The notes under the pieces: generated by a model
What the model was told of the DNA's origin: nothing
The model's database searches: none
The model's input: only the letters and a program-made list of their open reading frames with translations
NCBI RefSeq assembly: GCF_002205845.1
Contig: NZ_NISI01000006.1
Location: 372,001-436,000, forward strand
Origin: Roseateles puraquae
GTDB lineage: Bacteria > Pseudomonadota > Gammaproteobacteria > Burkholderiales > Burkholderiaceae_C
Length of the DNA: 64,000 nucleotides
Direction of reading: 5' to 3'
In this document: positions 10,106 to 46,356 of the stretch, piece by piece
How positions within the stretch are numbered: position 1 is the first letter of the stretch
Layout: the number at the start of each line of letters is the position of its first letter
Position numbers and translations under genes: made by a program

Positions 10106-10130
10106 CCCTGACCGCGAGCCGAGCCACGCC

Positions 10131-23826: not shown

Positions 23827-26790
23827 GTGACCGAGTCCCCCGTCTCCTTCGCCGCCAGTCCCAACGCGGCCGGCCAGCGCCGGCTGCTGACGCTGCTGTT
23901 CGTGGACCTCAGCGGCTCCACCGCCATGGCCGAATGGATGGAGGCGGAGCACTACGCGGCCATGCTGGCCGGCCTGCGCGAGCTCTACGAACGCATCGTG
24001 CCCCACCATGGCGGCGCCATTGCACGCATCCAGGGCGACGGCATGCTGGCCGTCTTCGGCTACCCCGAGACTCGCGAAGACGATGGCCGCCGCGCCACCG
24101 AAGCCGCGCTGGAGCTGCACGCCGCCGTGCGCGGCCTGCTGCCGCCAGGGCCGCGCCCGGCCGATTTCGCCGGCCTGACCCTGCACAGCGGCATCCATGC
24201 CGGCATCGTGCTCGTCAACGAGGGCGACCAGATGCGCGGCCGCTTCGAGCTGCTGGGCAACGCCCCCAACATCGCAGCGCGCCTGTCCGAGGCCGCCAAG
24301 GCCGACGAGATCATCGCCAGCGAAGAAAGCCTCGGCCTGCAGAGCCAGTTCTTCGAGACCGGCCCGCGCTTCTCGCTGCAGCTGCGTGGCCGCGCCACGC
24401 CGCTGGCGGCCTACCGGGTACATGGGCGCGCGGCCGTGGGCCGGCGCTTCGAGGCCAGCGTGCGGCGGGGCCTGGCGCCCTTCGTGGGCCGCTGCGGCGA
24501 GCTGGCCGCCCTCGACCGCGCCCTCGGCCGCCTGCTGGCCGGCCACACGCTATGGCTGAGCATCCGGGCCGGTGCCGGCGTGGGCAAGACGCGGCTCACC
24601 GAGGAATTCCTGCGCCACGCGGCCGACCAGGCCGACCAGCCCGTGCAGATCCACCGCGGCTACTGCGAGAGCTATCTGAGCGCCGAGCCGCTGCAGCCTT
24701 TCCTGCAGATGCTGCGCGCGCTCGATGGCCTGCATGACGCACCGCCCGAGCTCTTCGCCGCGCAGCAGAGCGCACCCGCCCAGCGCGCCGACGCGCTGCT
24801 GGCGCTGCTGCTGGCCCTGGCGCGGCGCACGCCCCAGCTGGTGTGCATCGACGACCTGCAGTGGGCCGACGATGCCTCGCTGCGCCTGCTGCACCGGCTG
24901 CGCAGCAGCGCCCAGGCCCAGGGGCTGCCGCTCTTGCTGCTGACCGCCAGCCGGCCGCAGCCCAGCCTGCCCGGCGGCCATGACGGCGACGCCGAGCTCA
25001 TCGAGCTGCCCCCGCTGACCGAGACCGAAGCCGCCCGTGCCGTGCAGCAGCTGCTCCCGCAGCACGACCCCTTCATCGCCTCCGAGGTGCAGCGCCACGC
25101 CGGCGGCAACCCGCTCTTCATCGAGGAGCTGTGCCACGCCGCGGCCGATGCCGGCGGCGGCCTGGGCGAAGGCCAGAGCAGTTCGGCCTGGCTGGCCGCC
25201 CTGGTGGAGTCTCGCGTGGGCCGCCTGCCGGCGGAGCAGGCCCAGCTCGTGCGGGTGGCGGCCGTCATCGGCAACGTCATCCCGGTCTGGCTGCTGGAGG
25301 CGCTGACCGGTTGCGGCGAGCGCCACCCGGCGGTGCTGGCCCTGGCCACGCAAGACTTCATCTTCCCCGACCAGCGCCCGGGCCATCTGCGCTTCAAGCA
25401 CGGCATCACCCGCGATGTGGTCTACGAAGCCACCGGCCTGCATGAACGCCAAGCCCTGCACCGACGCATCAGCTTCGAGCTGGCGTCGCACGGCGGGCCC
25501 GACGGCCAGTTGCATGAGCAACTCGCCTATCACGATGCCGCCGCCAACGACTGGCCCGCTGCCGCCCACCATGCGGAGTCCGCCGGCGACCAGGCCCTGG
25601 CCGCCTCGGCCCTGGACCGCGCCAAGAAGCAGTTCCGCGCCGCACTCGCCGCGCTGGAGTTCCTGCCCGACGGCGTGGACCGCCGCCGCCGCTGGGTGCA
25701 CATCGCCCAGCGCCTGGGCATGGCCTGCGTGTTCGACGCCTCGCAGGACGACCTGCGCGTGCTCAAGCACGCCGCCAGCCTCGCCCAGGCCGACGGTGAC
25801 CCCGGTCTGATCGCCCGCACCGAATACTGGCTGGCCTACGTCGGCTTTGCGCTGGGCGAAACCAAAGACAGCCTCGGCCACGCCCAGGCTGCGGTGCAGA
25901 CGGCCCAGCTCTGCAACGATCGCGCGCTGCTGGCCCAGTTGCCCGGCACGGTGGGCCAGCTCAAGGCGGCCGCGGCGGCCTACAACGAGGCGCTGCCCCT
26001 GCTGGACCTGGCCATCCACCTGCAGCGCGACCGCGCCAGCAAGAGCTCGGCCAACCGCATCGGCCTGGCCTACTCGCTGTGCTGCCGCGCCTATGTGCTG
26101 GCCGACCAGGGTCACTTCAGCGACGCGCACGAGATCTTTGCCGAGGCGCTGGCCCCCTTCGATGGCCGCGGCCACGCCGTCGAAGCCAGCATCCAGGGCT
26201 GGCGGGCGGCCGTGCTGCTGTGGCAGGGCCGCTGGGCCGAGGCCCGTGAGGCCGCGGCGGTCGCGCACCGCGTGGGCGCGCAGGTGCGCAGCATGTTCAC
26301 CTGCGCCATGGGTCAGGCCGCGGGTGCCTATGGCGCCTGGATGCAGACCGGCGACCCCGCCGCCCGCCAGCACATCGTCGACGCCATTGCCTGGCTCGCG
26401 CCACGCGGCGGTGGCCTGTACAGCAGCTTCAACCATGGCTGGCTGGCCGACATCCTGGCCACACAGGGCGATGCCGGTGCGGCCCGCCACCAGGTCGCGC
26501 TGGCCTTGAAGCGGGGCCGCCAGCACGACTGGATCGGTGGCGCCATGGCCTACCGTGCCGCGGCGCGCCTGGCCGCCCGCGTGGGCGACACCGACCGCGC
26601 CAAGCGCTACCTCGGCCTGGCCCGCGGCGCCGGCGAACAGCGCAACTCCGCCCACGAGGCCGCCGTCACCGCCCTGGTCGAAGCCGAGCTGCGGCTGGGC
26701 GACCGCTGGCAGGCCTCGCTGGATCTGGCCCGCGCCGAGTTTGCCCGGCTGGGCATGACCGGCTTCCTGGAACGTGCCCGTTCCCTTTGA
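23827..26790 (+). CDS. adenylate/guanylate cyclase - AAA ATPase - TPR regulatory protein
   Basis: 987 aa. The N-terminal class III cyclase domain (about 18-200) has metal residues Asp27 (FVDLSGST) and Asp71 (IQGDGMLAVFGYP) and the N-x-A-A-R transition-state pair Asn148/Arg152, so it should be active. A P-loop ATPase follows (AGAGVGKTRL, about 249-258; Walker B VCIDDLQWADD, about 339). The remaining ~500 residues are helical repeats of TPR type. This cyclase/AAA/TPR layout is common in Burkholderiales and resembles STAND regulators in which ligand binding to the TPR region gates activity. GTG start at 23827. Confidence 0.88.
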   Translation: MTESPVSFAASPNAAGQRRLLTLLFVDLSGSTAMAEWMEAEHYAAMLAGLRELYERIVPHHGGAIARIQGDGMLAVFGYPETREDDGRRATEAALELHAAVRGLLPPGPRPADFAGLTLHSGIHAGIVLVNEGDQMRGRFELLGNAPNIAARLSEAAKADEIIASEESLGLQSQFFETGPRFSLQLRGRATPLAAYRVHGRAAVGRRFEASVRRGLAPFVGRCGELAALDRALGRLLAGHTLWLSIRAGAGVGKTRLTEEFLRHAADQADQPVQIHRGYCESYLSAEPLQPFLQMLRALDGLHDAPPELFAAQQSAPAQRADALLALLLALARRTPQLVCIDDLQWADDASLRLLHRLRSSAQAQGLPLLLLTASRPQPSLPGGHDGDAELIELPPLTETEAARAVQQLLPQHDPFIASEVQRHAGGNPLFIEELCHAAADAGGGLGEGQSSSAWLAALVESRVGRLPAEQAQLVRVAAVIGNVIPVWLLEALTGCGERHPAVLALATQDFIFPDQRPGHLRFKHGITRDVVYEATGLHERQALHRRISFELASHGGPDGQLHEQLAYHDAAANDWPAAAHHAESAGDQALAASALDRAKKQFRAALAALEFLPDGVDRRRRWVHIAQRLGMACVFDASQDDLRVLKHAASLAQADGDPGLIARTEYWLAYVGFALGETKDSLGHAQAAVQTAQLCNDRALLAQLPGTVGQLKAAAAAYNEALPLLDLAIHLQRDRASKSSANRIGLAYSLCCRAYVLADQGHFSDAHEIFAEALAPFDGRGHAVEASIQGWRAAVLLWQGRWAEAREAAAVAHRVGAQVRSMFTCAMGQAAGAYGAWMQTGDPAARQHIVDAIAWLAPRGGGLYSSFNHGWLADILATQGDAGAARHQVALALKRGRQHDWIGGAMAYRAAARLAARVGDTDRAKRYLGLARGAGEQRNSAHEAAVTALVEAELRLGDRWQASLDLARAEFARLGMTGFLERARSL

Positions 26791-26814
26791 CGCCACCCGG
26801 TACTGCACCCGACC

Positions 26815-27240
26815 ATGCGCCTCCTGCCTCCCCTGCTGCTCCTGGGTGCCGCCAGCCTGGCGGCCGCCGCGCCCCAACCCTACACGGGTGCCGACTACTC
26901 CGGCCGCTACAGCTGCCAAGGGCTGGACGACCATGAAGGCCCCTACACCGGTACCGTCACGCTGGCCCTCGTGCGTGAGCAAAGCAGCGGCCGGCACGGC
27001 GCCTACCGCTTCGAGCTGGAAGTGCCCGGCTACGGTCGCTACCCTGGCCAGGCGGCCAGCGACGGCGCGCAGATGGCGATTCACTTCGCGCTGACCGACC
27101 CGTCCACCCAGGACTACGGCACCGGCATCGCCCGCTTCAGCAAGACGCGCGACGGCCGCTGGCAGTTCAGCAAGTGGTACTACCAGCCGCAGTTCAAGGG
27201 CGGCAACTTCGGCAGCGAGACCTGCACCCAGGTGAAGTAG
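26815..27240 (+). CDS. small secreted protein of unknown function
   Basis: 141 aa with a signal peptide (MRLLPPLLLLGAASLAAAAP). The mature part looks all-beta, with repeated aromatic/Gly strands (YSGRYSCQGLDDHEGPYTG; FSKWYYQPQFKGGNFGSETC) and two cysteines that may bond. I recognise no family. It begins 24 bp after the cyclase-ATPase stop, so it may be in the same transcript. Confidence 0.7.
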   Translation: MRLLPPLLLLGAASLAAAAPQPYTGADYSGRYSCQGLDDHEGPYTGTVTLALVREQSSGRHGAYRFELEVPGYGRYPGQAASDGAQMAIHFALTDPSTQDYGTGIARFSKTRDGRWQFSKWYYQPQFKGGNFGSETCTQVK

Positions 27241-27337: not shown

Positions 27338-28459
27338 ATGCCCACGGCCACCGCTCTCCCCACCGCCGCCACCGCATCTGACTGGCGCGGCTGGCTGCCC
27401 CCGCGCGACGTGCTGCGCATCTACGCGCTGGCCTGGGCGCCGGTGCTGTTGATCTACCTGATCGCGGTGGAGACCGACGGCGTCTGGTCGCGCGGCTTCA
27501 ACTTGCTCAGCGCCCTCCACGGCACGGTGCGCAACATGGGCCCGCAGTTCCTGCTGCTGTTGCTGCTGTGGCCGGCCACCGGCTGGATGGAGGCGCGCCG
27601 GCTCACCGCCGTGAAGCAGGTGGCCGCGCATGCGGTGCTGTCGGTGGGCTTCGTGCTGGTCTGGTATGGGCTGCTGTGGGTGTGGATTGCGCTGGAGAAC
27701 GGCATCGCCTCGGCCGAGCGGGCGCGGGCCAACTGGTTCATCTGGCAGCTGGAGTTCGGCATGCTGGCCTATGCCGCGGCAGCCGGCGGCTTCAGCGCCT
27801 ACCGCGCGGTGCAGCGGGCGCGCAGCGAGGCGGCGGCGGCGGCGCAGGCGCAGATGCTGCTGGCCCGCAGCGAGCTGGCCGCGCTGCGCAACAAGCTCAA
27901 CCCGCATTTCCTGTTCAACACCCTGCACAGCATCCTGGCCCTGGTGCGCAAGGACGCCCGCCGCGCCGAAGACGCCCTCTTCACCTTCAGCGAAATGCTG
28001 CGCTACCTGCTCGACACCGAACGCAGCGGCGACGACCAGGTGCTGCTGCGCGACGAGCTCACCTTCACCGAGCAATATCTGGCGCTGGAGGCCATCCGCC
28101 TGGGTGAGCGGCTGCAGGTGGACTGGCAGGTCGACGAGGCCCTGCTCGGCCGCAGCGTGCCCGCGCTGAGCCTGCAGCCGCTGGTGGAGAACAGCATCAA
28201 GCACGCCTTCAACCCGCGCAGCGAGCCCGGCCGGCTGCGCATCTGCATCGACCTGGCGGGCGAACAACTGCGCATGGCGGTGTCCGACGACGGCCCCGGC
28301 GCGCAACTGCCCGCCGACGGCGCCCTGCCGCCCGGCACCGGCCTGGGCCTGCGCACGGTGGCGCGGCGCCTGGCGCTGCGCTGGGGCGACGCCGCGCGGT
28401 TTGACGTGCGCTCACAACCCGGCCAAGGCTTCACCGTCGAAATGAGGATGCCCACATGA
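27338..28459 (+). CDS. LytS/YehU-type sensor histidine kinase
   Basis: 373 aa. Four N-terminal transmembrane helices (about residues 28-160) lead to a short coiled segment and a His_kinase domain with the phospho-acceptor in LNPHFLFNTLHSILALV. N-box LQPLVENSIKHAF and G-boxes DDGPG and GTGLGLRTV follow. It has no extracytoplasmic sensory domain, so the membrane part senses. Its TGA overlaps the ATG of the LytTR regulator by 4 bases. A second, paralogous pair is at 53369-55224. Confidence 0.92.
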   Translation: MPTATALPTAATASDWRGWLPPRDVLRIYALAWAPVLLIYLIAVETDGVWSRGFNLLSALHGTVRNMGPQFLLLLLLWPATGWMEARRLTAVKQVAAHAVLSVGFVLVWYGLLWVWIALENGIASAERARANWFIWQLEFGMLAYAAAAGGFSAYRAVQRARSEAAAAAQAQMLLARSELAALRNKLNPHFLFNTLHSILALVRKDARRAEDALFTFSEMLRYLLDTERSGDDQVLLRDELTFTEQYLALEAIRLGERLQVDWQVDEALLGRSVPALSLQPLVENSIKHAFNPRSEPGRLRICIDLAGEQLRMAVSDDGPGAQLPADGALPPGTGLGLRTVARRLALRWGDAARFDVRSQPGQGFTVEMRMPT

Positions 28460-29196
28460 CCATCCGCGTCGTCATCTGCGAAGACGAACCGCTCGCCCGC
28501 GAGACGCTGCGCGACTTCATCGCCGCCACGCCGGAGCTGGTGCTGGTGGGCGAGGCGGCCAATGGGCGCGAAGCCTTGCGGCTGATCCAGGCCCTGTCAC
28601 CCGAGCTGGTGTTCATGGACATCCAGATGCCCGAGCTGACCGGCCTGGAGGTGGTGCGCCAGCTGCCCAGCGTGCCGCCGCTGATCTTCACCACCGCCTA
28701 CGACCAGCATGCCGTGACCGCCTTCGAGCTGCATGCGCTGGACTACCTGCTCAAGCCCTTCACCCAGGCGCGCTTCCAGGCTGCCGTGCAGCGCGCGCTG
28801 CAGGCCCCGGCGCCAGCCACCGAGCGCAGCGAGGCGGCGGTGAGCGCGCTGCAGAGCCAGCCCGGCGAGGCGCTCGCCCGCATCCTGGTGCGCGACCGCG
28901 GCCGCATCTTCCCGCTGGCGCTGGGCGAGATCGAACACCTGCGCGCCGACCTCAAATACACCCAGATCACCGCCCGCGGCGCCAGCTTCCTGGTGCGCAT
29001 GCCGCTGACCGACCTGGAAGCCCGGCTGGACCCCACCCGCTTCCTGCGCGTGCACCGCAACGCCATCGTCAACCTGGACTTCGTCGAGTCCATGAAAGCC
29101 GACGACCAGAGCCAGCTGCAGATCCTGATGCGCGACGGCACCGAGCTGCTGGCCAACCGGGAGGCGAGCAAGCGGTTGAGGGATTTGTCGATCTAG
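28456..29196 (+). CDS. LytTR-family response regulator
   Basis: 246 aa. Receiver domain (acidic pair CEDEP, phospho-Asp in VFMDIQMPELTG, Thr in FTTAYDQ, Lys in YLLKPFTQA) followed by a LytTR DNA-binding domain (about 140-246; IEHLRADLKYTQITARG ... RFLRVHRNAIVNLDFVES). Phosphorylated by the overlapping kinase gene. Target promoters would carry paired LytTR repeats; none was identified nearby. Confidence 0.93.
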   Translation: MTIRVVICEDEPLARETLRDFIAATPELVLVGEAANGREALRLIQALSPELVFMDIQMPELTGLEVVRQLPSVPPLIFTTAYDQHAVTAFELHALDYLLKPFTQARFQAAVQRALQAPAPATERSEAAVSALQSQPGEALARILVRDRGRIFPLALGEIEHLRADLKYTQITARGASFLVRMPLTDLEARLDPTRFLRVHRNAIVNLDFVESMKADDQSQLQILMRDGTELLANREASKRLRDLSI

Positions 29197-29668: not shown

Positions 29669-29970
29669 GGCCATCCCGACAAGCGTGGAAGCAGACCTCC
29701 GCAGCTGACCGCTCCTGGCCGAAAAGCGCCACCGTATCACCGCCTCGCGACCCACGGCAGCGGCGGCAACGCTGAGGCGGCTTCGCCATTGCACAGGACG
29801 GCAGGGCCGGTGAACATTGGTCTGTAAGGATGCCGACCCGGCCGCCGACCACGGTCCTGGCGGCTTTGCATCCAAACCCGTACGTTGTGCGTACGCCAAG
29901 TTGCGTCATGGGGTCCGCGCCGCGGGATCTGCGTGATGTGCCGTCTCTCAACCCTTCCAAGGACATCCGC

Positions 29971-30969
29971 ATGAACGCTCACACCTTTAGCCTGCTTCTG
30001 GCCGCCGCCGCCGTCGGCGTCGCCACCTCCGCCTGGGCCCAGGTCGACCCCACCAAGCTCGTGGACGCCCAGGAGGCCGCTGGCGGCAAGTTCGAGGGCT
30101 ACCGCCGCTCGGGCGCCAAGGGCGTGTGCGCGATGGCGGAATTTGTCGGCAGCCCGCAGGGCCGGGCGCTGTCCAGCGCGTCGGCGTTCAATGGCAAGCC
30201 GGTGCCGGTGGTGGCCCGGTTCTCGATCGGTGGCGGCAACCCCAAGGCGCCGGACAACGCGCGCAGCCAGCGCAACCTGGCGCTGCAGTTCAACCTGCCC
30301 AAGGGCGAGGTCTGGCAGATGGGCAACATCTCGGCGCCGGTGTTCGGCGCGGCCACGCCCGAGCAGTTCCTGGGCCGGCTGGAGTCGCTGATGCCCGACC
30401 CCGAAACCAAGAAGCCCAACCCCGAAAAGGTCAAGGCGTTTGCCGAGGCCAACCCTGAGGTGCTGCTGCAAGGCAAGTACCTCGCGAGCCAGCCGGTGCC
30501 GGCCAGCTACGGCGCGGTCAACTACTGGGGCGTGCATGCGTTCGCCTTTGTGGATGCCAAAGGCAAGAAGCAGTTCGGCAAGTGGATCTTCGAGCCGGCG
30601 GGCGGCACCCAGAGCCTGACGGACGACGAGGCCAAGGCCAAGGGCCCGGACTTCCTGATCGACGAGCTGCGCCAGCGCGTGGCGGCCAGCACCGTGGCCT
30701 TTGACTTCAACCTGCAGCTGGCCGAAGCCGGCGACAAGCTCGACAGCGCGGTGACGCCGCTGCCAGAGGATCGCAAGAAGGTCACGCTGGGCCGGCTGAC
30801 GATCAAGTCCGTCTCGCCCGACGCGACCGGCCCCTGCCTGGCCATCACCTACAACCCGATGGTGCTGCCCAAGGGAGTCGAGGCCGGCCCGGACCCGATG
30901 CTCGCCGCCCGCGCGGCGCCTTACGGCGTCTCCCTGGGCCGGCGACTGACGGAGGGCGCCAAGCAGTGA
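29971..30969 (+). CDS. periplasmic catalase-family peroxidase (SrpA-like), distal His apparently missing
   Basis: 332 aa, the length of small catalase-related peroxidases, with a signal peptide (MNAHTFSLLLAAAAVGVATS ... AWAQ). Matching features are PVVARFSIGGGNPKAPDN, NLALQFNLPKGE, and the C-terminal haem-ligand segment RAAPYGVSLGRR (Tyr318). The family normally reads R-R-x-H-A-K-G near the N-terminus, where His is the distal catalytic residue; here it reads RRSGAKG (44-51), with Gly48 in place of His. Catalase or peroxidase activity is therefore doubtful, and haem binding may serve another reaction. ATG at 29971 with AAGGA upstream. Confidence 0.85.
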   Translation: MNAHTFSLLLAAAAVGVATSAWAQVDPTKLVDAQEAAGGKFEGYRRSGAKGVCAMAEFVGSPQGRALSSASAFNGKPVPVVARFSIGGGNPKAPDNARSQRNLALQFNLPKGEVWQMGNISAPVFGAATPEQFLGRLESLMPDPETKKPNPEKVKAFAEANPEVLLQGKYLASQPVPASYGAVNYWGVHAFAFVDAKGKKQFGKWIFEPAGGTQSLTDDEAKAKGPDFLIDELRQRVAASTVAFDFNLQLAEAGDKLDSAVTPLPEDRKKVTLGRLTIKSVSPDATGPCLAITYNPMVLPKGVEAGPDPMLAARAAPYGVSLGRRLTEGAKQ

Positions 30970-31556: not shown

Positions 31557-34500
31557 CTACACCCCCAACGCCACCACCGTCGGCGACCCCGTGAACCGCA
31601 TCACCCCCGCATCCAGCACTGCCGCCACGACGCCCAGCATCACGCCCATGCCCATGCCGTAGCCGGGGCAGGCGTGGGGTGGGGCGCCTTGTGGGTCGGC
31701 GCGGTCGCCGCCGAAGGCGACGTGGTGGCGCAGCGGGTCTTGCTGAGTGGCGGAGCCCAGGCCGACGATGACGGTGTCTGACGTGGTCACGTCCACCTCG
31801 CCCAGGCGGTGGTTGCTGAGCACGCGGCGCCAGATCTGGAAGGGCGTGGGGCGCAGGTTGAGCGTTGCCACCAGCGCCGGGCGCAGGCGGGCCACGGCCT
31901 CGGTGTAGCGCTGGGCGTCGGTGACCGATTCAGGCACCTCGTGCCAGACGGGCTGGAGGTCCCAGAGCTTGCGCGTCTGCACCCAGCCGGCCAGCACGGT
32001 CAGCAGGTTGCCATGCGTGGTGGGCGGGAAGCCGAGCATCACGCCGGCCAGCGTGCGGGCCGCGAGGTCGGCGGGGGCGCCCGGCACGCGCTCGGCGGCT
32101 TCGACGATCTGCCGGGTCAGGTCGGGCCAGTCGCCGCGCGGCGTGGCCTGCAGCCAGGCGGTCGTGGCCTGCAGGAAGCTTTGGCCGGCCATGCGGCCCT
32201 GGGCGCTGACGACGTCGCTCGGATGCGGGCCGAACACATGCCGCGACACCTGGAACAGCGCGCGCGGGCAGCGCGGCGGCTCGGGCTGCGTCGGCGGATG
32301 CAGCTCCGTGCCCCACACCAGGCGGCCGTCGGGCAGGCCGAACCACTGGCGGCACAGGGCCGCGAGCACGTTCTCGCTGAGGCGCTCCAGGTCCAGCGGC
32401 GTGTCGGCCGGGATGCCGTGGGGCTTCTGGCCGTCGGGGAAGGCGGCCAGCAGGCCGAGGGCCTCGGCCTTGAGCTGCTTCATGCCGCCGCTGGCGATGG
32501 CGTAGGCCCGCGTGAAGGCTTCGGCTTCGCTGATAGCCTCCAACGCGCGGTTGACCTCGGGCGCCTGTTCCTTGTGGCCGTTGTCGTCGTCCATACCGAG
32601 GAAGCCCTCGCCGATGGAGTCGCGCATGCGGTCGCCATAGCCCTTGTTGGAGTAGCGCAATTCGCGGTTGCGCAGCACGTCGCAGACGCGCTCCGGCGCG
32701 CCTACCAGCACGCCATAGGCCGTGCGAGCCACGCCGCCGGGCTGGGCGCGCACCCAGGCCCAGGCGGCGTCGCGGGTGTTGGTGTCTTCCAGCCAGCGCT
32801 GGCAGGCGGCGAAGTCCTGCAGGTCGGGCGTGCGCAGCGGGGCGGGTGTCGCCGGCGGCAGGGGCAGCGGCAGCTCAGCCAGCCCGGGCAGGGCCTTCAG
32901 CGCGGCGATCGACGGCACGAAGAAGTAGGCGCCCCACTGCAGCGTGACGAAGGGTTCGTCGCCGAGTTCGATCTCATACGGCTTGCCAGCATGCTCGAAG
33001 GGGTAGAGCCGCTTGCCCTGGCTCGGGTCCACCACGCCCAGCAGCGGGTCGCTCTGCGCGGAGTAGCCGCCGCTGGCGTTGGCGCCGGCCATCCAGCGCT
33101 GCACCACCTCGAACTGCTCGGCCAGGTGGGCGTTGTAGGCCATGAAGACCAGGCCGCGGTCTTCCTTGTCGTTGGGGTTGAGGCGGTCCGGCGGCGGGCC
33201 GTAGCTCATGCCGCGTCGCAGGATGCGCGGCATGCGCTTCGTGAGTGCGGAGTCTTCGGCCTGGTCACGCGGGTTGGCGCGGCGGATGTGCGCGTGGAAG
33301 GGGCACATCGAGCCACGCTTGTCGCGCTCGTAGTTGAAGTCGTTGCCGTCGGTGCTTTCGTCGGCCAGGGCCTTGCCGTCCAGGCGGCGGCCCATGAGCT
33401 TGGCCATCAGCAGGTCGGCCGGCAGCTGGGTGCGCTTGGCTTCGCGCTGGATGCGGTCATGCAGCCGGCCGGTGTACTGGCGCAGCTTGCGCACGACGAG
33501 GAAGCTGCCGCAGTCCAGCAGCGCATCGGCCTGCTCGGGCACGGGCCAGCCCTTGTCGCGCAGGGTCGGGAAGCCCTGCACGATCTCACCCTCGGGCACC
33601 TGGTCGTCCCAGTATTTGTGCTCCACCTTGTCGAGCGTGGGCTGGCTGATGCCGTCCTTGAAGCCGAAGTTCTCCTTGTCGCCGCCGTTGCTGCGCATGG
33701 GCTCGATGGCCATCAGCGCCAGGCCCGTGCCCTCGGTGAGGGCCTTGGCGGCGGCGTCGATGCGGGCGCGGTCATCGTCGGTGACGGCCTCGCCGCCGGC
33801 CGGGTTGTGAAAGCGCACCTGCACCAGCAGATGCGCGCCTGCGGGGTCGAAGCGGTCACGGCGGTTGACGTGCGGCGCCAGCGCCCAGTGCGTCGGGTGG
33901 TTGTGGCGCACATCGCCCAGCAGGCCGGCGCGGGCGGCCATGCCTTCCTTGAAGGCCTGCGGAAACCGCGCCAGCCGCGCCTCGGGGATGCCGAGCGCCT
34001 TCAGGCCGGCCAGCGTCAGGGCCAGCTGGCGCCACACGCCACCCGGGCCGGCCTTGCCGCCTTCGGCCTCGACCGGGGCGGTGGCCAGCCAGGCCAGCGC
34101 GCGCGCCGGCTGCTCGATGCGCATCAGCAGCAGCGCGCCGCGGTTGGTGGGCAGCTTGGTGAGCATGCCGGCCTGCAGCTGGTGGCGGTCGAGCTTCAGC
34201 CGGGCGGCGGGGGTGTCGACCGGCGGGAGCGTGCTCTCGAACCAGGCCAGCATCTCGTGGTGGCGCAGCCGCAGGCGCTCGCCCGGCGTGAGCTGCTCCG
34301 CCGGCTTGCCCGGCGCGGGGAAGGGGAACTGGGCGCGGGTGTCGAGCTGGGTGAGCTCGAACAGCACGTCCTGCGTGGCCCGCAGCAGGCAGCCGCCGTC
34401 GGGCGCGCCGGGGCGGAAGAAGCGCTGCAGCGTGAACAGCCCGGCCAGCGGCACCAGGCCGCGGGCCGCCATGGCAAAGCGCTCGGCGGGCTGGTCAGGG

Positions 34501-35087
34501 CCCGGCAGTGGCCGCACCTGGCCGGAGGACGGCGCGCGCAGGCGGTCGGCCTTGAGTTCGTCGGCCTGGCCGCGCTGGCTGGCTTCCAGCAGGGCGAGGT
34601 ACTCCGCGTCGGCCACGGTGCGGCCGGATTCAATGAACAGGAAGTCTGCCGAGATCTCGTGCTCGCGCACCCAGCGCGAGTAGGTCTCGAAGCTGCAGCG
34701 GTTGGAGAGCTGGTAGCCCTCGGTGTGGCAGAGCATCAGGTCCAGCGTGGACCCGAGCTGGTCCCAGATGACCCGCATGTACGGCTCCCAGCCACCGTCG
34801 AAGTTGACGCACAGCAGCAGCCGGTCGGGCGCGCCGTTCTTGCCGTCCACCACGGCCCAGCGGAAGGAATGCACGATGCGCCAGCGGGCGACGATGTCGG
34901 TGTAGGGCGAGGCCGGCGCGCTGCTCTCGCGCGAACCCAGGCGCAGGCCGTTGAGCGTGCGCAGCACCTTGCGCAGGCGGTCGACATGGGTCACCACCTC
35001 CAGCGCATCCACGAAGCCGGGCTTGATGTCGGCGAGCAGCACCAGGTCCGTGATGCCGCCGAGTTGAACGTCGTTGCCGCGCGCCAT
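31557..35087 (-). CDS. DyP-type peroxidase / cytochrome P450 fusion protein
   Basis: 1176 aa in one unbroken frame. Residues 1-300 are a ferredoxin-like region without clear haem motifs. About 305-735 form a dye-decolorizing peroxidase: GxxDG motif FGFKDGISQP (Asp478), haem-binding His600 in FHAHIRRANPRD, and Arg624/625 in RILRRGMSYGPP. About 752-1176 form a P450: I-helix-like segment near 1013-1024, and Cys loop FGGDRADPQGAPPHACPG with thiolate Cys1140. The K-helix position that should read E-x-x-R reads A-T-L-N (1074-1077), followed by the expected RPTPFQIWRRV. There is no signal peptide, so it is cytoplasmic. ATG at 35087 has GGGGAGG 7 bases upstream. Confidence 0.88.
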   Translation of the reverse strand: MARGNDVQLGGITDLVLLADIKPGFVDALEVVTHVDRLRKVLRTLNGLRLGSRESSAPASPYTDIVARWRIVHSFRWAVVDGKNGAPDRLLLCVNFDGGWEPYMRVIWDQLGSTLDLMLCHTEGYQLSNRCSFETYSRWVREHEISADFLFIESGRTVADAEYLALLEASQRGQADELKADRLRAPSSGQVRPLPGPDQPAERFAMAARGLVPLAGLFTLQRFFRPGAPDGGCLLRATQDVLFELTQLDTRAQFPFPAPGKPAEQLTPGERLRLRHHEMLAWFESTLPPVDTPAARLKLDRHQLQAGMLTKLPTNRGALLLMRIEQPARALAWLATAPVEAEGGKAGPGGVWRQLALTLAGLKALGIPEARLARFPQAFKEGMAARAGLLGDVRHNHPTHWALAPHVNRRDRFDPAGAHLLVQVRFHNPAGGEAVTDDDRARIDAAAKALTEGTGLALMAIEPMRSNGGDKENFGFKDGISQPTLDKVEHKYWDDQVPEGEIVQGFPTLRDKGWPVPEQADALLDCGSFLVVRKLRQYTGRLHDRIQREAKRTQLPADLLMAKLMGRRLDGKALADESTDGNDFNYERDKRGSMCPFHAHIRRANPRDQAEDSALTKRMPRILRRGMSYGPPPDRLNPNDKEDRGLVFMAYNAHLAEQFEVVQRWMAGANASGGYSAQSDPLLGVVDPSQGKRLYPFEHAGKPYEIELGDEPFVTLQWGAYFFVPSIAALKALPGLAELPLPLPPATPAPLRTPDLQDFAACQRWLEDTNTRDAAWAWVRAQPGGVARTAYGVLVGAPERVCDVLRNRELRYSNKGYGDRMRDSIGEGFLGMDDDNGHKEQAPEVNRALEAISEAEAFTRAYAIASGGMKQLKAEALGLLAAFPDGQKPHGIPADTPLDLERLSENVLAALCRQWFGLPDGRLVWGTELHPPTQPEPPRCPRALFQVSRHVFGPHPSDVVSAQGRMAGQSFLQATTAWLQATPRGDWPDLTRQIVEAAERVPGAPADLAARTLAGVMLGFPPTTHGNLLTVLAGWVQTRKLWDLQPVWHEVPESVTDAQRYTEAVARLRPALVATLNLRPTPFQIWRRVLSNHRLGEVDVTTSDTVIVGLGSATQQDPLRHHVAFGGDRADPQGAPPHACPGYGMGMGVMLGVVAAVLDAGVMRFTGSPTVVALGV

Positions 35088-38242: not shown

Positions 38243-40789
38243 TCAGGCGGCCACCGCCTCCCAGCGCCCCCGCACATAACGCTCGAAACCGCCGCCCTCG
38301 GCAAAGCGCCACAGGTGCAGCCAGTCGTGCTGCAGCAGCTGGGCGACCACCGCATGCGCCGCGATCACCCGCTCGATGGCCTCGGCGGGCGCGTCGATGA
38401 CGGTGGTGAGCCGCAGCGGCTCGTGGCGCCAATGCTCGCCGTCATGCAGGGACTGGCGGGCCAGGCCGATGCGAAGGTCGCCGCCATTGCCCTCGAACAC
38501 GCCGATGCGCCCGCCCACCACGTTGTGCAGCAGCTTGTTGCCGCTGCCCAGACGCTGCGGATCGCAGGTGGAGGCGTGGTATTGCCAGTTGATCCAGTGC
38601 GTGACCAGCATCGGCGCGGTCATCAGCAGCTCCAGCACACTGCCGTCGGCGTCGTTGGCGGCGTCGTAGTCGTGCAGGAAGACGCGGCCGTCGAGCACCG
38701 CGCCCTGGCTGCGCGCGCGCGGCGCGATCAGGAAGGCGGCATTGCCGGTCAGGCCCCACTCGGGGCGGGTCTGGGCGCCGTCATTGGCGCGGCGGCGCAG
38801 CTGGTCGAGCAGGCTCGCATGCGGTGTGCGCGGGTCCAGGCCCAACGTGGGCGCGCGTTCGCGGCGCACCTGGTCGCCGGCTTGCGCCCAGGCGGTGGCC
38901 AGGCGCGCCCAGCGGGCCTGGCCCCAGGCGGGCAGCAGGTCGAGGTCGAAGGCCTCGATCTCGTCGGTGGTGGTGTTGTGCAGGGCCGCGACGAAAGCCA
39001 CGTCACCCGGCAGCGCCAGGCCGCGGGCGCGCAGGCCGGCCTGCACCTCGGCTTCGTTCAGCAGCCGCGCCAGCGCGCGGGCATTCACCTCGCCGGTCTG
39101 GCCGCAGCAGGCGCCGCAGTCCAGCGCGGCGGCCTGCGCGTTGTTGGCGCTCTGGCTGCCGTGGCCCACCAGCACCACCAGCGGCGCCAGGCCCCGGTCC
39201 ACGCCCATGGCGTGCAGCACGCGGGCGGCCAGGTCGACCTTGGCGTTGGTGTCCAGGCCGGCGAGCACCGGCCGGCAGACCGGGCGGTAGCGGGGCGACA
39301 GGCCTTCGCCATCGAGCGAGCGACGCGCCGCGGCCGAAGGACGCAGCCACTGGCCCAGGCGGCCGAGGTAGCCGGCTCCCACCGCCTCGACCGACGAGAA
39401 GGCCGCGTTCGGCCAGCGGCTGCCGGCGCCCCAGCGCTCGGTGCGGGCGAACTGCGCCAGCCGCTGCTGGCGGGCTGGCGCCTGCAGCCGTGCGCCGGCG
39501 GCGCCGAAGTCGGCCACGGTGGGGGCGATCTGCTCGGTCACCTCCAGCGCCGGAGCCAGCAGCCCGGGCAGCTGCGGCCGGCGCGCCTCGGTGGCCAGCG
39601 GCGTGTAGGCCACCGGCAGGCCGAAGAAGCCGGCGAAGCCCACCGTCTGCACACCCGGCCACGCGGCCTCCAGCGCGCGGCGCAGCGGCTCGCTGCGCAC
39701 GTCGATGCAGAAGGCGGCCTGCACTTCCACGGGGGCCGCCGGGTCGGCCGGCAGCGGCGCCACGGCCTGCAGGCGCCGCGCCAGGTCGCGCTGGTAGCCG
39801 ACCTCGTAGGCGGTCTGCCAGAGCTCATCCACCTGCAGGGCCGCCTCGGCCTGCTGCAGGCGCTCGGCAGCGCACTCCCACTCGACCTGCAGGGCCGCGA
39901 AGGCGCGCTGGGCGGCCTGGTCGTCGCGGCACTCCAGCAGCAACGCGCCCCAGGCCAGGCGAATGGCCAGCAGGTCACGCAGATGGGCGTCGCCGCGGCC
40001 CTGCTGGCGCGCCTCCCAGCCGAGGTAGGCACACCACGACGCCCAGCCGTTGACGGTGAGCAGCACCGCCTCCAGGTAGTCGGCCCAGGCCTCGGCCGGC
40101 AGGCCCAGGCGGCGCAGCACCCAGCGCTCCGCGTCTTCCCGGGTGGCGGGCAGGGCGGCCAGGCCGCGCCCCAGGTCAGGCAGGCCCATCAGCACGCCGA
40201 CGCCATGGTCGTGCGCCACGGTGTCGCGCCAGAAGGCGTAGAGGCTGCCGGCACGCTCGGGCTGCCAGTCGGCCTGGTGGTGGTCGAAGTAGGCGGCGCA
40301 GACCTGGCTCACCTGGTGCGTGACGGCCTGGCGCCACGACAGCCGCGCGCGGCCTTCGGGGTCGTCGTCGAGCACGTCGATCAGCAGCGGCAGGCTCGGC
40401 ACGGCCAGGGGCTGGTGCAGCGCCGCGATGACCTCGGGGGCGCCGAGCCCGCTCGACTGGCGCGTCAGCGCCTCCTGCAGGTCCGCCGGCTGGATGCGGC
40501 CGCCGGCCCAGGCCTGCTGCAGGTGCTGGCGCGACGGGAACACCGCGATGCCACCCAGCACCGCCATGCGCGCCGCCACTTCGCGCACCGGGCGGCCGAT
40601 GCGCTCCCAGTGCGGATTGACGGCGATGGCGCGGTCCAGCGGCCAGGCGGGCGCGATGGCGCGGCAGGCCTGGGCACAGGCGCCTTCGACGCGGGCGTTG
40701 AAGTCGGCCTGGGTCTCCAGCACAGGGCCGTGGGAACGCGGCGTGGTGGCCTGCGCGGCGCGGGTGTGGGTCAGCGTGTGCATGGGCAT
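38243..40789 (-). CDS. dabA: inorganic carbon transporter subunit DabA (UPF0753/DUF2309)
   Basis: 848 aa. The zinc-site residues of DabA, a beta-carbonic-anhydrase-like site, are present: Cys361 and Asp363 in AAFCIDVRSEP, His543 in VGHGSQSANN and Cys558 in LDCGACCGQTG. The spacing (2 residues and 15 residues) is as in characterised DabA. With the membrane subunit DabB it hydrates CO2 to bicarbonate in one direction, driven by cation flux, and so accumulates inorganic carbon. It follows dabB by 14 bp in one operon. Confidence 0.93.
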   Translation of the reverse strand: MPMHTLTHTRAAQATTPRSHGPVLETQADFNARVEGACAQACRAIAPAWPLDRAIAVNPHWERIGRPVREVAARMAVLGGIAVFPSRQHLQQAWAGGRIQPADLQEALTRQSSGLGAPEVIAALHQPLAVPSLPLLIDVLDDDPEGRARLSWRQAVTHQVSQVCAAYFDHHQADWQPERAGSLYAFWRDTVAHDHGVGVLMGLPDLGRGLAALPATREDAERWVLRRLGLPAEAWADYLEAVLLTVNGWASWCAYLGWEARQQGRGDAHLRDLLAIRLAWGALLLECRDDQAAQRAFAALQVEWECAAERLQQAEAALQVDELWQTAYEVGYQRDLARRLQAVAPLPADPAAPVEVQAAFCIDVRSEPLRRALEAAWPGVQTVGFAGFFGLPVAYTPLATEARRPQLPGLLAPALEVTEQIAPTVADFGAAGARLQAPARQQRLAQFARTERWGAGSRWPNAAFSSVEAVGAGYLGRLGQWLRPSAAARRSLDGEGLSPRYRPVCRPVLAGLDTNAKVDLAARVLHAMGVDRGLAPLVVLVGHGSQSANNAQAAALDCGACCGQTGEVNARALARLLNEAEVQAGLRARGLALPGDVAFVAALHNTTTDEIEAFDLDLLPAWGQARWARLATAWAQAGDQVRRERAPTLGLDPRTPHASLLDQLRRRANDGAQTRPEWGLTGNAAFLIAPRARSQGAVLDGRVFLHDYDAANDADGSVLELLMTAPMLVTHWINWQYHASTCDPQRLGSGNKLLHNVVGGRIGVFEGNGGDLRIGLARQSLHDGEHWRHEPLRLTTVIDAPAEAIERVIAAHAVVAQLLQHDWLHLWRFAEGGGFERYVRGRWEAVAA

Positions 40790-40803
40790 CTCCTTGGTTC
40801 AGG

Positions 40804-42345
40804 TCATTGCGCGGCGGCGGGGGTCCAGCGCGCTGGCCACAGGCGCAGGGCGGCCCGGGTCACGAACTCGTCGACGTAGAAGCCCGCGTAGCTCCAGCGG
40901 CGCCAGCCCGAGAGCAGGTCGGGGCGCGTCTGCATCAACGTGAGGCTGAGGTAGAGCAGGGCCATGCCGGCGAGCGCGACCCAGCCGGCGGCGGCCAGCG
41001 GGGCATCGCTCACGCCAAAGGGCAGCGCATGGCCCACGCAGGCCGCCAGCACCAGGCCGGCCACCATGGCCGCCCCGGTCAGCGCGCCGCGCCAAGCCGG
41101 CGGGGCATCGGGATGGCGCTGTGCCGGCTGCCACAGCAGCGGCGCCCAGGCCAGGGCCAGCAGCGCCGTCCACCAGCCGGGCCAGCCGGCGCCGGGCAGC
41201 ACCAGCGCCACGGCGCTCAGCACCGCCCACAGCACCGCGCCCACGACCAGCGGCGCCACGACGACGCTGGCCAGCGACGGCGCCACGCTGCCGCGCATCA
41301 GGCGCAGCCGGGTGTCTTCCACCGCGCCGGAGGCCGCCAGGAAGGCATGGGCCTTGTAGAGCGAATGGCCCAGCAGGTGCAGCAGCGCCAGGGTGTACAG
41401 GCCCAGGCCGCACTCCATCACCATGAAACCCATCTGCGCCACGGTCGACCAGGCCAGCCGCACCTTGATGCTGATGCGCGTGAGCATCACCAGCCCGGCC
41501 AGCACGGCCGTCAGCAGGCCGGCCACCACCAGCAGCCAGCGGGCCACCGGCGCGGCTTCCAGCAGCGGCGCGAAACGGATGAGCACGAAGCCGCCCAGGT
41601 TGATGACGCCCGCATGCAGCAGGGCCGACACCGGCGTGGGCGCCTCCATCACCTGGATGAGCCAGCCATGCACCGGCAGCAGCGCGGTGCGCAGCACCAC
41701 GGCCAGCGCCAGGCAGACGGCGCTCAGCTGCAGCGGCCAGGCGGCCGGGCCGGTCGCCAGCGTCTGCCACAGGGCGGACAACGAACCCGAGCCCACCTGA
41801 TGCCAGGCCAGGGCCGCGGCGGCCACCAGCAGCAGGTCAGCCAGCCGGTCGGCGACGCGCTTCTTGTGCGCGGCCAGCAGGGCGAAGGGGCGATCGGTAT
41901 AGAAGCACAGCAGATGCTGCAGGGCCAGGCCCACGGCCGCCCAGGCGGCGATCAGCACCAGCCAGTGGTCGGCCAGCAGCAGCAGGTGCACCGCGGCCAG
42001 CACGCCGCCCAGGGCGGCCACGTAGCGCGGCTGGCCGGGCTCGCCCTCCAGATAGCGCGAGGAGAAGGCCGCGATGGTGGTGCCCAGCAGCTGCACCAGC
42101 ACCGCGATCCAGGCGCCGGCCAGCGTCACACCCAGGCCGGCCGGCATGGCGGCCGCAACCGCCCCGGGGGCCACGAACTGCGCCCCCAGGCTGGCCAGGG
42201 CGCCGGCCAGCGCCAGCCAGGCCAGCGCCCGGAAGCGCCGCCAGGCCGGCGCTGCCAGCCCGCTGCGGCGATGCGGCACCGCCGCCAGCATCAAGGCGGC
42301 GGGCAACAGGCTGCAGGCCAGGGTCAACAGGGCGGGCGGATTCAT
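40804..42345 (-). CDS. dabB: inorganic carbon transporter membrane subunit DabB (NuoL/MrpA-like)
   Basis: 513 aa, about 13-14 membrane helices. It is related to proton-pumping Complex I subunits: HGWLIQVMEAPTPVSALLHA with the conserved His/Glu, and STVAQMGFMVMECGLG. It is short for NuoL, as DabB is. It probably conducts H+ or Na+ to drive DabA. I start at the ATG at 42345 (MNPPALLTLACSLLPAALML) with GGAG upstream; an earlier in-frame ATG at 42408 lacks this. Divergent from the LysR gene, its likely regulator. Confidence 0.92.
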   Translation of the reverse strand: MNPPALLTLACSLLPAALMLAAVPHRRSGLAAPAWRRFRALAWLALAGALASLGAQFVAPGAVAAAMPAGLGVTLAGAWIAVLVQLLGTTIAAFSSRYLEGEPGQPRYVAALGGVLAAVHLLLLADHWLVLIAAWAAVGLALQHLLCFYTDRPFALLAAHKKRVADRLADLLLVAAAALAWHQVGSGSLSALWQTLATGPAAWPLQLSAVCLALAVVLRTALLPVHGWLIQVMEAPTPVSALLHAGVINLGGFVLIRFAPLLEAAPVARWLLVVAGLLTAVLAGLVMLTRISIKVRLAWSTVAQMGFMVMECGLGLYTLALLHLLGHSLYKAHAFLAASGAVEDTRLRLMRGSVAPSLASVVVAPLVVGAVLWAVLSAVALVLPGAGWPGWWTALLALAWAPLLWQPAQRHPDAPPAWRGALTGAAMVAGLVLAACVGHALPFGVSDAPLAAAGWVALAGMALLYLSLTLMQTRPDLLSGWRRWSYAGFYVDEFVTRAALRLWPARWTPAAAQ

Positions 42346-42391
42346 CGGCGCACTCCAATTCGCAATGGGCGGCATGGTGCGCAAGTCCGAG

Positions 42392-42419
42392 CGTTCCGTA
42401 AAATTCAATGTTCGGAACG
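42392..42419. promoter_or_regulatory. putative LysR-type operator between dabB and lysR
   Basis: CGTTCCG (42392-42398) and CGGAACG (42413-42419), perfect 7-bp arms around 14 AT-rich bases, centred in the 93-bp divergent promoter region. The form fits a LysR-type recognition dyad. The adjacent LysR-family gene begins at 42439. Confidence 0.6.
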
Positions 42420-42438: not shown

Positions 42439-43398
42439 ATGCTTCAGATCGAACAGCTCAATTTCCACCACCTCTTCTACTTTTGGCGGGTGGCCAAGAC
42501 GGGGCACCTGACGCAGGCGGCCACCGAGCTCCATGTGTCGCAATCGGCGCTGTCCAGCCAGATCCGCCAGCTGGAGGAGCGCATCGGCGAGCCGCTGTTC
42601 GAGCGCAGCGGGCGGCGCCTGCTGCTGACCGACACCGGGCAGCTGGTGCTGTCGTATGCCGAGAACATCTTCGGGCTGGGGCGGGAGATGCTCGGCCGGC
42701 TGCAGGGCCGCGGCGAGGGCCTGACGCGGGTGCGCGTGGGCAGCGTGGCCACGCTGTCGCGCAACTACCTGGAGAACTGGATCCGGCCGCTGCTGGCCGA
42801 CCCGAACGTGACGCTGTCGCTGGAGTCGGGCCTGTTGGACGACCTGCTGCGCCGGCTGTTCGAGCACCAGCTGGACGTGGTGCTGGCCAACGAGGCCGCG
42901 CCCGCCCGACCCGACCGGCCGCTGCACTGCCGCTTCCTGGGCAGCCAGGCGATCTCGCTGGTGGGCCCGGCCGCCACCTGGCGCGGCCGCAGCCTGCGCC
43001 TGCCGGAAGACCTCGAAGGCCGGGAGCTCGCCCTGCCCGGCCCGCGCCATGCGCTGCGCGGCGAGTTCGACGCCCTCTGTGTGGCCGCGGGCGTCACGCC
43101 ACGCCTGCGCGCCGAGGTCGACGACATGGCCATGCTGCGCCTGGTGGCCCGCGACAGCGGCTGGCTGACCGTGCTGCCCGAGGTGGTGGTGCAGGACGAA
43201 CTGCGCACCGGCGTGCTGGTGCGGGTGGGCCGCTCCACGCAGCTTCGCGAGAACTTCTACGCCATCACCACGCTGCACCGGCACCGGCTGGAGCGACTGG
43301 AGCAGCTGCTGGCCCACACGCCGCTGGCGGTGGACGACGACACGCTCACGGCTGCAACTGGAACTCCACCCGCGCCCAGCGCCCTAGGCCGTCCATGA
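42439..43398 (+). CDS. LysR-family transcriptional regulator (NhaR-like), likely controlling dabBA
   Basis: 319 aa. The N-terminal winged helix (LNFHHLFYFWRVAKTGHLTQ, ATELHVSQSALSSQIRQLEE) is followed by a LysR effector domain (about 90-300), nearest in style to NhaR. Divergent transcription from dabB with a dyad between suggests it senses an inorganic-carbon or ion signal. The ATG at 42439 has no Shine-Dalgarno; the message may be leaderless or weakly translated. Its last 53 bases overlap the 3' end of pbpC on the other strand. Confidence 0.9.
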   Translation: MLQIEQLNFHHLFYFWRVAKTGHLTQAATELHVSQSALSSQIRQLEERIGEPLFERSGRRLLLTDTGQLVLSYAENIFGLGREMLGRLQGRGEGLTRVRVGSVATLSRNYLENWIRPLLADPNVTLSLESGLLDDLLRRLFEHQLDVVLANEAAPARPDRPLHCRFLGSQAISLVGPAATWRGRSLRLPEDLEGRELALPGPRHALRGEFDALCVAAGVTPRLRAEVDDMAMLRLVARDSGWLTVLPEVVVQDELRTGVLVRVGRSTQLRENFYAITTLHRHRLERLEQLLAHTPLAVDDDTLTAATGTPPAPSALGRP

Positions 43399-45703: not shown

Positions 45704-45750
45704 GCATCGCCGCCTGCAAAATCCTCGCGACGACGCCCGCCACCATTCCC

Positions 45751-46341
45751 ATGCAGAAGCAAGCCTGGAAGCTCTTCCCCACCCTCGTGCACCGCTACAC
45801 CGAGGTGCTCACCGCCGATCAGCTCGACACCATCCTGGCTCATTGCCTGCAGTCGGAAGCCGGCCGGCACGGCGCCCTGCTCGGCGACGCGCAATCGACC
45901 TTCGACAAGGATGCGCACTTCATCGAATCCCTTGAAGCAGCCCACGCCCATCTCCAGGGCCTCACGCAAGGCCTCGCGCAGCTGATGGACGCCTACGCCC
46001 GCGAACTGGGGCTGGACGGCGCCCGGCTGTCCAACTCGTGGTTCAACATTCAGCGCCCGGGCAGTGTGCTGCGGCATCACACCCACCCCGACTCGCGCGT
46101 GTCGGCGGCCCTGTGCATCGCCAGCGACGATGCCAGCAGCAAGCTGCACTTCGAGAACCCGAATCCGCTGATCGGCTTCATCGAGGCGGCGCAGCCCACC
46201 GAGTTCAACATGGAGATGGCCAAGTTCAAGCTCGCTCCAGGCGACCTGCTGCTGTTTCCGTCCTGGCTCAAGCACGGCTCCGGCTTCGAGGCCAACCAGT
46301 CGGCGCTGCGGGTCATGATCAGCCTGAACGCGGGAGCGTGA
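45751..46341 (+). CDS. putative 2OG-Fe(II) oxygenase (TIGR02466-type)
   Basis: 196 aa. The sequence carries the family signature SNSWFNIQRPGSVLRHHTHP followed by DSRVSAALCI, giving iron ligands His and Asp. A later LFPSWLKHGSG supplies the distal His, with Arg in ALRVMISLN for 2-oxoglutarate. It hydroxylates an unknown substrate. It is divergent from pbpC (47 bp between the pbpC ATG and this ATG) and converges on the DUF5329 gene with a 15-bp gap. Confidence 0.85.
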   Translation: MQKQAWKLFPTLVHRYTEVLTADQLDTILAHCLQSEAGRHGALLGDAQSTFDKDAHFIESLEAAHAHLQGLTQGLAQLMDAYARELGLDGARLSNSWFNIQRPGSVLRHHTHPDSRVSAALCIASDDASSKLHFENPNPLIGFIEAAQPTEFNMEMAKFKLAPGDLLLFPSWLKHGSGFEANQSALRVMISLNAGA

Positions 46342-46356
46342 CGCGGGCCATCGCGC

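Follow-up and report, generated by a model that had tools for sequence, protein, structure and literature searches.

The window analysed here is a stretch of 64,000 nucleotides from Roseateles puraquae (contig NZ_NISI01000006.1, positions 372,001 to 436,000 of the forward strand), and the subject of this report is a gene on its minus strand that fuses an N-terminal domain (N-domain), a dye-decolorizing peroxidase (DyP) domain and a cytochrome P450-like domain, together with a nucleotidyl cyclase gene found near it. Positions 31557-35087 hold a single open frame of 1176 codons without an internal stop; the preliminary description of this DNA had reported the same uninterrupted frame and named no strand, which is minus. 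An upstream ATG at 35201 gives an alternative frame of 1214 amino acids (aa), 38 residues longer. The ATG at 35087 is preferred over it because GGGGAGGG lies directly 5' of that codon, because the extra 38 residues diverge in one relative (L035), and because the frame of another (L034) starts at the same MARGN residues. Named residues are given in the 1176-aa numbering, which equals the 1214-numbering minus 38. The features of the gene, and the linked cyclase, are:

31557..35087 (-): whole gene, N-domain - DyP - P450-like, 1176 aa, start ATG 35087, alternative ATG 35201
34212..35069 (-): N-domain and following linker, residues 45-330 (1214-numbering), from alignment and domain map; conserved IHSFRW...FDGGWEPY
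32886..34190 (-): predicted DyP-type peroxidase domain, residues 338-772 (1214-numbering), from PF20628, TIGR01413, phmmer to 8re3 and Foldseek
33654..33656 (-): Asp of GxxDG (Asp478), from alignment
33288..33290 (-): His600, taken as the proximal haem ligand, from alignment
31560..32849 (-): predicted P450-like haem-thiolate domain, 430 aa, from an AlphaFold2 model and Foldseek
32016..32033 (-): I-helix motif GFPPTT, with Pro at the usual Asp/Glu place, from alignment
31857..31868 (-): K-helix A-T-L-N replacing E-x-x-R, residues 1074-1077, from alignment
31668..31670 (-): Cys1140 (HACPG), taken as the thiolate ligand, from alignment
23827..26790 (+): class III adenylate/guanylate cyclase - AAA_16 ATPase - TPR protein, 987 aa, from Pfam (TPR match below cut-off)

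The residues singled out in the preliminary description (the Asp of GFKDG, His600, Arg624/625, Cys1140 and A-T-L-N at 1074-1077) are all present, and its picture of two haem-enzyme folds within one chain is borne out, by family matches for the DyP and by a predicted fold for the P450. The first ~300 residues, which it had called a domain of unclear role, do form a separate domain, now recognised as a recurring N-domain that also exists as a free gene beside DyP. No leader peptide was seen by eye in the fusion protein, which is probably cytosolic.

The peroxidase and P450-like domains

The DyP half is the sole part of the chain visible to Pfam, matching PF20628 at 29.2 bits (cut-off 20), and the NCBIfam model TIGR01413 matches at 92.7 bits, below its cut-off of 100.5. 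Its nearest solved relative is the DyP of Deinococcus radiodurans (8re3, phmmer E 6e-39). Conservation was read from a family alignment of 49 rows, from which L033, L034, L035 and L037 were left out as duplicates of L088, L090, L089 and L119, and L138 and L139 as ordinary P450s, and for which L107 (G384) gave no match. Among the 47 rows with data, the GxxDG position holds Asp in 46 and Glu in one, and the proximal His is kept throughout (47/47), as is Arg662 (1214-numbering); the GxxDG Asp, proximal His and distal Arg are presumably the residues of the DyP site. Searches of Pfam and NCBIfam returned no cyclooxygenase-like haem peroxidase/dioxygenase domain, only DyP families. By sequence and by conserved residues alike, the fusion can be assigned as a predicted member of the DyP-type peroxidase superfamily, whose natural substrates are mostly unknown.

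The P450-like domain gave no match to PF00067 at E 0.1, nor at 0.01 in a whole-genome search that found one other P450 in the window genome, and a profile of 11 relatives searched against PDB sequences reached a P450 at E 0.057 only. The AlphaFold2 model of the 430-aa domain has a predicted local distance difference test score (pLDDT) of 79.4 and a predicted template modelling score (pTM) of 0.83, and the 50 matches listed by Foldseek against the PDB are all P450s (probability 1.00, template modelling score 0.51-0.61). By profile comparison with hhalign, the domain aligns with ExxR-bearing P450s from DyP operons (probability 99.3, E 8.8e-21), which themselves match solved P450s at E 3.9e-40. 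The C-terminal domain is predicted from these models to retain the P450 fold, so that of the earlier suggestion that the lost ExxR had altered fold or activity, the part concerning the fold does not stand; the search of the full protein proposed at that time returned DyP alone from Pfam, and DyPs and P450s from structural matching.

The cysteine ligand is invariant in the family (HxC in 48/48 rows), the next-but-one residue being Gly in 44 rows and Ala in four, and the Cys-ligand loop, rightly described before as intact, carries an insert. The K-helix of the window gene does read A-T-L-N in place of E-x-x-R, as claimed, and ExxR is found in none of the 48 aligned window-type rows, with no row having both residues. 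AxxN itself is confined to 15 of the 48, all from the window's genus, and the remaining rows hold many other residue pairs; the constant feature is the absence of ExxR rather than the presence of AxxN. The [WY]R that follows the K-helix is kept in all 48 rows, and the Thr that follows the I-helix Pro in 43. For the P450-like part, the ratio of nonsynonymous to synonymous substitution rates (dN/dS) ranges from 0.055 to 0.47 over the 10 pairs tested, some of which share a sequence; it exceeds that of the DyP part in six of nine comparable pairs and falls below it in three. Loss of ExxR thus appears to be old and tolerated rather than the decay of one gene, because it extends across the family and because the dN/dS values of these 10 pairs are low.

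The N-domain gave only chance-level matches to Pfam and no convincing family. The full-length predicted model is poor (pLDDT 65.8, pTM 0.44), and Foldseek searches with it rank DyPs first and then P450s; because the model is too poor, it does not fix the fold of the N-domain, for which a predicted order of strand-helix-strand-strand-helix would suit a ferredoxin-like fold.

A wider DyP-P450 module and its linked cyclase

At E below 1e-50 the fusion is found in 26 of 299 family genomes, a count that excludes G315, G454 and G384 (E above 1e-6), which were scored as negative. All 20 genomes of the window's genus, its own included, carry a match to the P450 module; in G212, G216 and G218 the matching frame is truncated by the end of a contig. 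Well-assembled genomes encode the chain as a single frame, among them G347 (1 contig, 1243 aa) and G274 (3 contigs, 1180 aa). Across the phylum, 3 of 398 genomes, own included, carry a P450-module match at 1e-5, with G763 a weak match to an operon P450, and the N-domain is found in 26 of the 398, own included. A three-sequence alignment of the P450 module retrieved 10 loci from the named genome collection, spread over Burkholderiales (including Roseateles subflavus, L037), a beta-proteobacterial metagenome-assembled genome, and the Alphaproteobacteria Bradyrhizobium, Sandarakinorhabdus and Novosphingobium. Two records deserve a remark of their own. JAIPCJ010000156.1 (L033), titled Methylotenera, holds a 97% identical copy, and G216, which has the same sequence, falls in the window's genus; the name on the record looks wrong. 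On the Sphingopyxis plasmid pDB-1 (L030, 4959-10409), a window-type gene starts inside the DyP part, beside a Tn3 transposase, and its front seems cut off.

The window gene is one form of a broader DyP-P450 module, which is encoded either by separate genes lying side by side or by a single fused gene, the fusions coming in two opposite domain orders. In the window type, or C-type, the P450-like domain is C-terminal to the N-domain and DyP. A domain map covered 32 loci, three of which are of the window type or its free P450-like relative (L030, L177, L039); the other 29 comprise seven fusions of opposite order, P450 - N-domain - DyP (L031, L173-L176, L178, L180), nine loci with P450 and DyP as neighbouring genes and the N-domain fused or free (L131, L132, L134, L136, L183, L189-L192), and 13 with DyP and no P450. 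In L185, L186 and L187 (for example L187, 6513-8585) the N-domain has a gene of its own, encoding about 230-260 aa and immediately preceding that for the DyP. Two proteins of the module appear in public records under the names 'cytochrome P450' and 'Dyp-type peroxidase domain-containing protein'. A Rhizobium leguminosarum plasmid (L032, 512-7500) encodes a 976-aa N-domain-DyP protein without a P450, downstream of a CHAT-domain protein, CHAT being a family we take to be caspase-like proteases. The preliminary description had raised the possibility that homologues are always separate genes with ExxR intact; this describes the distant relatives, where ExxR is kept in 16 of 16 P450s from the neighbouring-gene and P450 - N-domain - DyP loci, and fails for the close family.

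What the DyP-linked P450s share is a change in the I-helix. At the column of the usual acid, the window type has Pro in 46 of 48 rows and Ala in two, the acid being absent from all 48, and 15 of the 16 operon and N-terminal-fusion P450s have Pro as well, whereas ordinary P450s of these genomes have Asp or Glu in 26 of 26 rows (drawn from eight genomes, near copies among them, 24 picked by Pfam score). Alignments by hidden Markov model and by MAFFT support this register, with Pro at the acid and Thr kept. In a maximum-likelihood tree, one branch splits the 26 ordinary P450s from the DyP-linked ones (Shimodaira-Hasegawa-like approximate likelihood ratio test 100) and the window type forms one group (100); the tree comes from a quick search only, L134 and other long branches are unsure, and the window type may have arisen inside the operon group or outside it.

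The strongest clue to function, overlooked in the earlier sequence reading, is the linked nucleotidyl cyclase. In the window it lies 3' of the fusion, convergent and 4.8 kb away, with genes for a histidine kinase, a LytTR regulator, a catalase-like protein and a YcxB-like protein between them. Across 50 window-type loci (including L177, which is absent from the 49-row alignment), the cyclase is linked at 44, downstream and convergent at 43 and upstream in tandem at one (L039), as judged with a profile built partly from loci later counted. The two genes lie within 200 bp of each other at 27 of the 50 loci, and 11 of those 27 pairs overlap tail to tail. Six loci have no linked cyclase, four of them with under 1.4 kb of downstream sequence. 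The same association is seen at the level of genomes. Taking an orthologous cyclase as a match of over 800 bits (the next match scores 355), 30 of the 299 family genomes have the cyclase, 26 the fusion and 26 both, so that the cyclase is present in 26 of 26 fusion-positive and 4 of 273 fusion-negative genomes; the fusion search scored six candidates per genome and the cyclase search two, and the two sets of 299 genomes are treated as one because their handles and tallies agree. For L090 and L099, two of the six unlinked loci, the genome has its cyclase gene elsewhere: in G214 it is not on the 56-kb contig of the fusion, and in G217 it is about 79 kb away. The window genome itself has a single match to the partner cyclase at 1e-20. 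Within the cyclase, all 40 rows with data retain both Asp residues that we take to bind metal; the Asn and Arg, whose roles are likewise assumed, are retained in 36 of 40 and 36 of 41. The L039 locus (5900-10901) of a Bradyrhizobium metagenome-assembled genome contains nothing that matches DyP; there a free ExxR-less P450-like gene directly follows a gene for the cyclase-AAA-TPR protein. A minus-strand open reading frame at 24550-27084 was discarded as a conserved neighbour, being an antisense shadow of the cyclase gene with no Pfam hit and the wrong codon-position GC content. A role in anti-phage defence was likewise rejected: PADLOC gave no match for the fusion, P0005, P0006 or the CHAT protein, and the best match of the cyclase to Pycsar cyclase models (E 2.1e-15) covers the cyclase domain, as expected of class III cyclases.

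Other companions are found at fewer loci. A GDSL/SGNH-like hydrolase is fused C-terminally at five of the 50 loci (L038, L115, L120, L126, L177) and encoded by a neighbouring gene at two (L036, L121). Genes of the Crp/Fnr type are found close by at 12 of 50 window-type loci and at 8 of the 16 other loci with both P450 and DyP, against none of the 13 that have DyP and no P450. The GDSL-like and Crp profiles were also built partly from loci later counted, three of them in the case of Crp/Fnr. When 63 loci were scanned for ferredoxin motifs, with frames filtered by length and codon GC at the risk of losing true genes, the two hits, L116 (an implausible 79-aa frame) and L126, were unconvincing.

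Proposed function and alternatives

The reading we prefer, tentatively, is that the gene may encode an oxidase with two haems, self-sufficient and driven by peroxide, that is connected with signalling by cyclic nucleotides. The DyP site would oxidise a substrate using hydrogen peroxide or a hydroperoxide, and the haem-thiolate site would complete the reaction, using peroxide itself or else rearranging what the DyP has produced, in the manner of fungal dioxygenase-P450 fusions. This is the simplest reading because both haem sites are conserved, the P450 has lost the acid that normally delivers protons for the activation of O2, no redox partner is seen nearby and a peroxide enzyme lies in the same chain; that peroxide or product is shared between the haem sites is something we infer. 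Less surely, the substrate could be lipid- or ester-derived, because some relatives have a GDSL-like hydrolase in the same chain or encoded next to it, and the linked cyclase, together with Crp/Fnr at the loci that have it, might relay the redox state or the oxidised product. It is the link to the cyclase that would give the product or state of the enzyme a relevance to signalling, and it suggests a connection that may run in either direction, the enzyme feeding the cyclase or the cyclase controlling the enzyme. A more elaborate scheme, rather unlikely in its entirety, would have the hydrolase free a lipid or ester, the fused DyP and the acid-less, ExxR-less P450 make an oxidised signal from it with peroxide, and the cyclase-AAA-TPR protein convert the signal to a cyclic nucleotide that Crp/Fnr-type regulators detect, with the DyP-linked P450s as a distinct peroxide-driven clade marked by G[FA]xPT; such a system would be a bacterial counterpart of the oxylipin or prostanoid synthases.

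Several observations weigh against the two-haem oxidase and its tie to signalling. Haem binding and activity are predicted, from sequence and model, the poor full-length model says nothing on haem-haem contact, and the loss of ExxR could mean lost catalysis. Solved P450s among those best matched, CYP113A1 included, have Ile or Leu at the acid column, so that loss of the acid alone is no proof of peroxide use, and selection by strong Pfam match, as applied to 24 of the 26 ordinary rows used as controls, favours canonical motifs. The alignment rows are related, 20 of the 49 coming from one genus, and counts drawn from them are not independent. The gene for a redox partner could lie in another part of the genome, and the ferredoxin scan was motif-based and had two hits. 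As to the cyclase, none lies in the flanks of L090 and L099, each with 8 kb of downstream sequence, although one is present elsewhere in the genome, and four genomes have the cyclase and, on a full look, no P450 module of the fusion; no DyP or P450 lies near it in three of these four, the contig of the fourth being only 3.5 kb. In the fetched flanks of loci other than the window type, a cyclase occurs at 9 of 16 with P450 and DyP and at none of 13 with DyP alone, a contrast weaker than it looks because L031 and L173-L176, which make up five of the nine, are closely related and have a shorter cyclase (about 594 aa) that matches the cyclase part only; the other seven of the 16 have no cyclase in their flanks. 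The GDSL-like hydrolase is limited to 7 of 50 loci, with the Pfam matches of four scanned proteins below curated cut-offs, and a Crp-site scan of the window found no excess, with fewer matches than in shuffles.

Absence of both ExxR and the I-helix acid from all 48 rows, with an invariant Cys, is also what would be expected of a non-catalytic P450-like haem-thiolate sensor or scaffold on the DyP, binding carbon monoxide, nitric oxide, peroxide or a fatty-acid ligand and setting the activity of the linked cyclase. The strong cyclase link and the free P450-like gene beside the cyclase of L039, with no DyP in that locus, speak for this possibility, which we nevertheless find doubtful: [WY]R, the Thr after Pro and the Cys loop are conserved, purifying selection is nearly of DyP strength (dN/dS higher in six of nine pairs, lower in three, always under 0.5), and P450s that lack ExxR are known, as described for CYP157 in the text covered of PMC3599690. 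Distinctly unlikely is an ordinary monooxygenase, reduced by a ferredoxin and reductase encoded elsewhere, for which the DyP merely clears hydrogen peroxide from uncoupling. Unlinked redox partners are common for bacterial P450s, the operon P450s keep ExxR (16/16), and some solved P450s have Leu or Ile where the acid would be; the replacement of the acid by Pro in the DyP-linked P450s (15 of 16 operon and N-terminal-fusion rows, 46 of 48 window-type rows) argues the other way, as do the two unconvincing ferredoxin hits in 63 loci and the fact that a catalase would be a simpler scavenger.

A stress protein detoxifying peroxide or xenobiotics, with haem sites that act separately and a cyclase that regulates expression only, would fit the presence of Crp/Fnr genes in the neighbourhood of 12 of the 50 C-type loci and, in the window, the divergent catalase-like gene that adjoins the fusion (29830-30969, plus strand, 379 aa, PF00199 96 bits). 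That gene was rejected as a conserved partner, no cluster of it reaching 4 of 48 loci, and the constancy with which the domains are combined suggests that they act together, which makes detoxification quite improbable. The broken ExxR and the invisibility of the P450 part to Pfam could finally be put down to an assembly join, a frameshift or a decaying pseudogene, and the preliminary description had reckoned with a join or frameshift near residue 750. This is refuted, with next to no chance of being right, by the same layout across the genus and in many genomes, by a single frame in well-assembled relatives, the single-contig G347 among them, and by dN/dS below 0.5 for the P450 part in 10 of 10 pairs.

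Neighbouring genes and known systems

Elsewhere in the window, the histidine kinase and LytTR response regulator genes between fusion and cyclase form a pair on the plus strand (27338-29196). On the minus strand, a DabA carbon transporter gene lies beside a gene for a protein like NADH-quinone oxidoreductase subunit L (38243-42408), presumably as a DAB pairing, and a penicillin-binding protein gene (transglycosylase and transpeptidase) accompanies that of a 1695-aa bacterial alpha-2-macroglobulin (43346-52539), two kinds of gene that often pair.

The gene and its cyclase neighbour hint at an undescribed oxidation-and-signalling system. In the open-access literature, as seen in titles and the starts of abstracts, we recognised no DyP-P450 fusion and no DyP-P450-cyclase link, in agreement with the earlier statement that no characterised enzyme has this layout. 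DyPs would gain from it a physiological context in cyclic-nucleotide signalling, and the C-type family, in which ExxR is absent from all 48 rows, can test the role of that motif.

Among solved proteins, the best sequence and structure matches are the DyP of D. radiodurans (8re3), Amycolatopsis DyP2 (4g2c) and an ancestral D-type enzyme (7anv), which share GxxDG, His and Arg with the window protein; the solved chains are of 442-493 aa, to which the window protein adds an N-domain and a P450. The CYP152 peroxygenases have Arg-Pro in place of the acid-alcohol pair, keep ExxR and are not known to be fused to a DyP. According to the part of PMC10988616 available, these enzymes (P450-BSbeta, OleT) are peroxide-driven and lack the usual acid-alcohol pair. 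The window type is like CYP152, known here by description, in having lost the I-helix acid, and unlike it in having Pro at the acid and mostly keeping Thr; none of the PDB matches listed is named CYP152. The CYP157 P450s of Streptomyces, which are linked to conservons, lack ExxR through loss of the K-helix Arg and keep the Glu (EQSLW, EVLW), whereas no window-type row has a complete pair; the covered text of PMC3599690 mentions no DyP fusion, and what it reports of CYP157 shows that ExxR is not absolutely required.

Closest in design are the fungal fusions (linoleate diol, allene oxide and epoxy alcohol synthases) and the oomycete CYP5619, which, like the window protein, have a peroxidase-type haem domain and a P450 in one chain. 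In the fungal enzymes the haem partner is a cyclooxygenase-like dioxygenase, and the window protein, with a DyP in its place, is not a member of that family. Their P450 isomerises the hydroperoxide, and the available part of PMC13049297 terms them self-sufficient. CYP5619, a peroxidase/dioxygenase-P450 fusion, keeps ExxR and is degenerate at CXG in the portion of PMC5919972 covered, the opposite of the window protein, which has lost ExxR and kept the Cys loop. A bacterial version built on DyP, with fusions in either domain order, would represent convergence on a way of handing a peroxide or radical product to a P450. What is already known, then, is that P450s may lack ExxR and that other peroxidase/dioxygenase-P450 fusions exist; what the window protein would add is a fusion built with a DyP.

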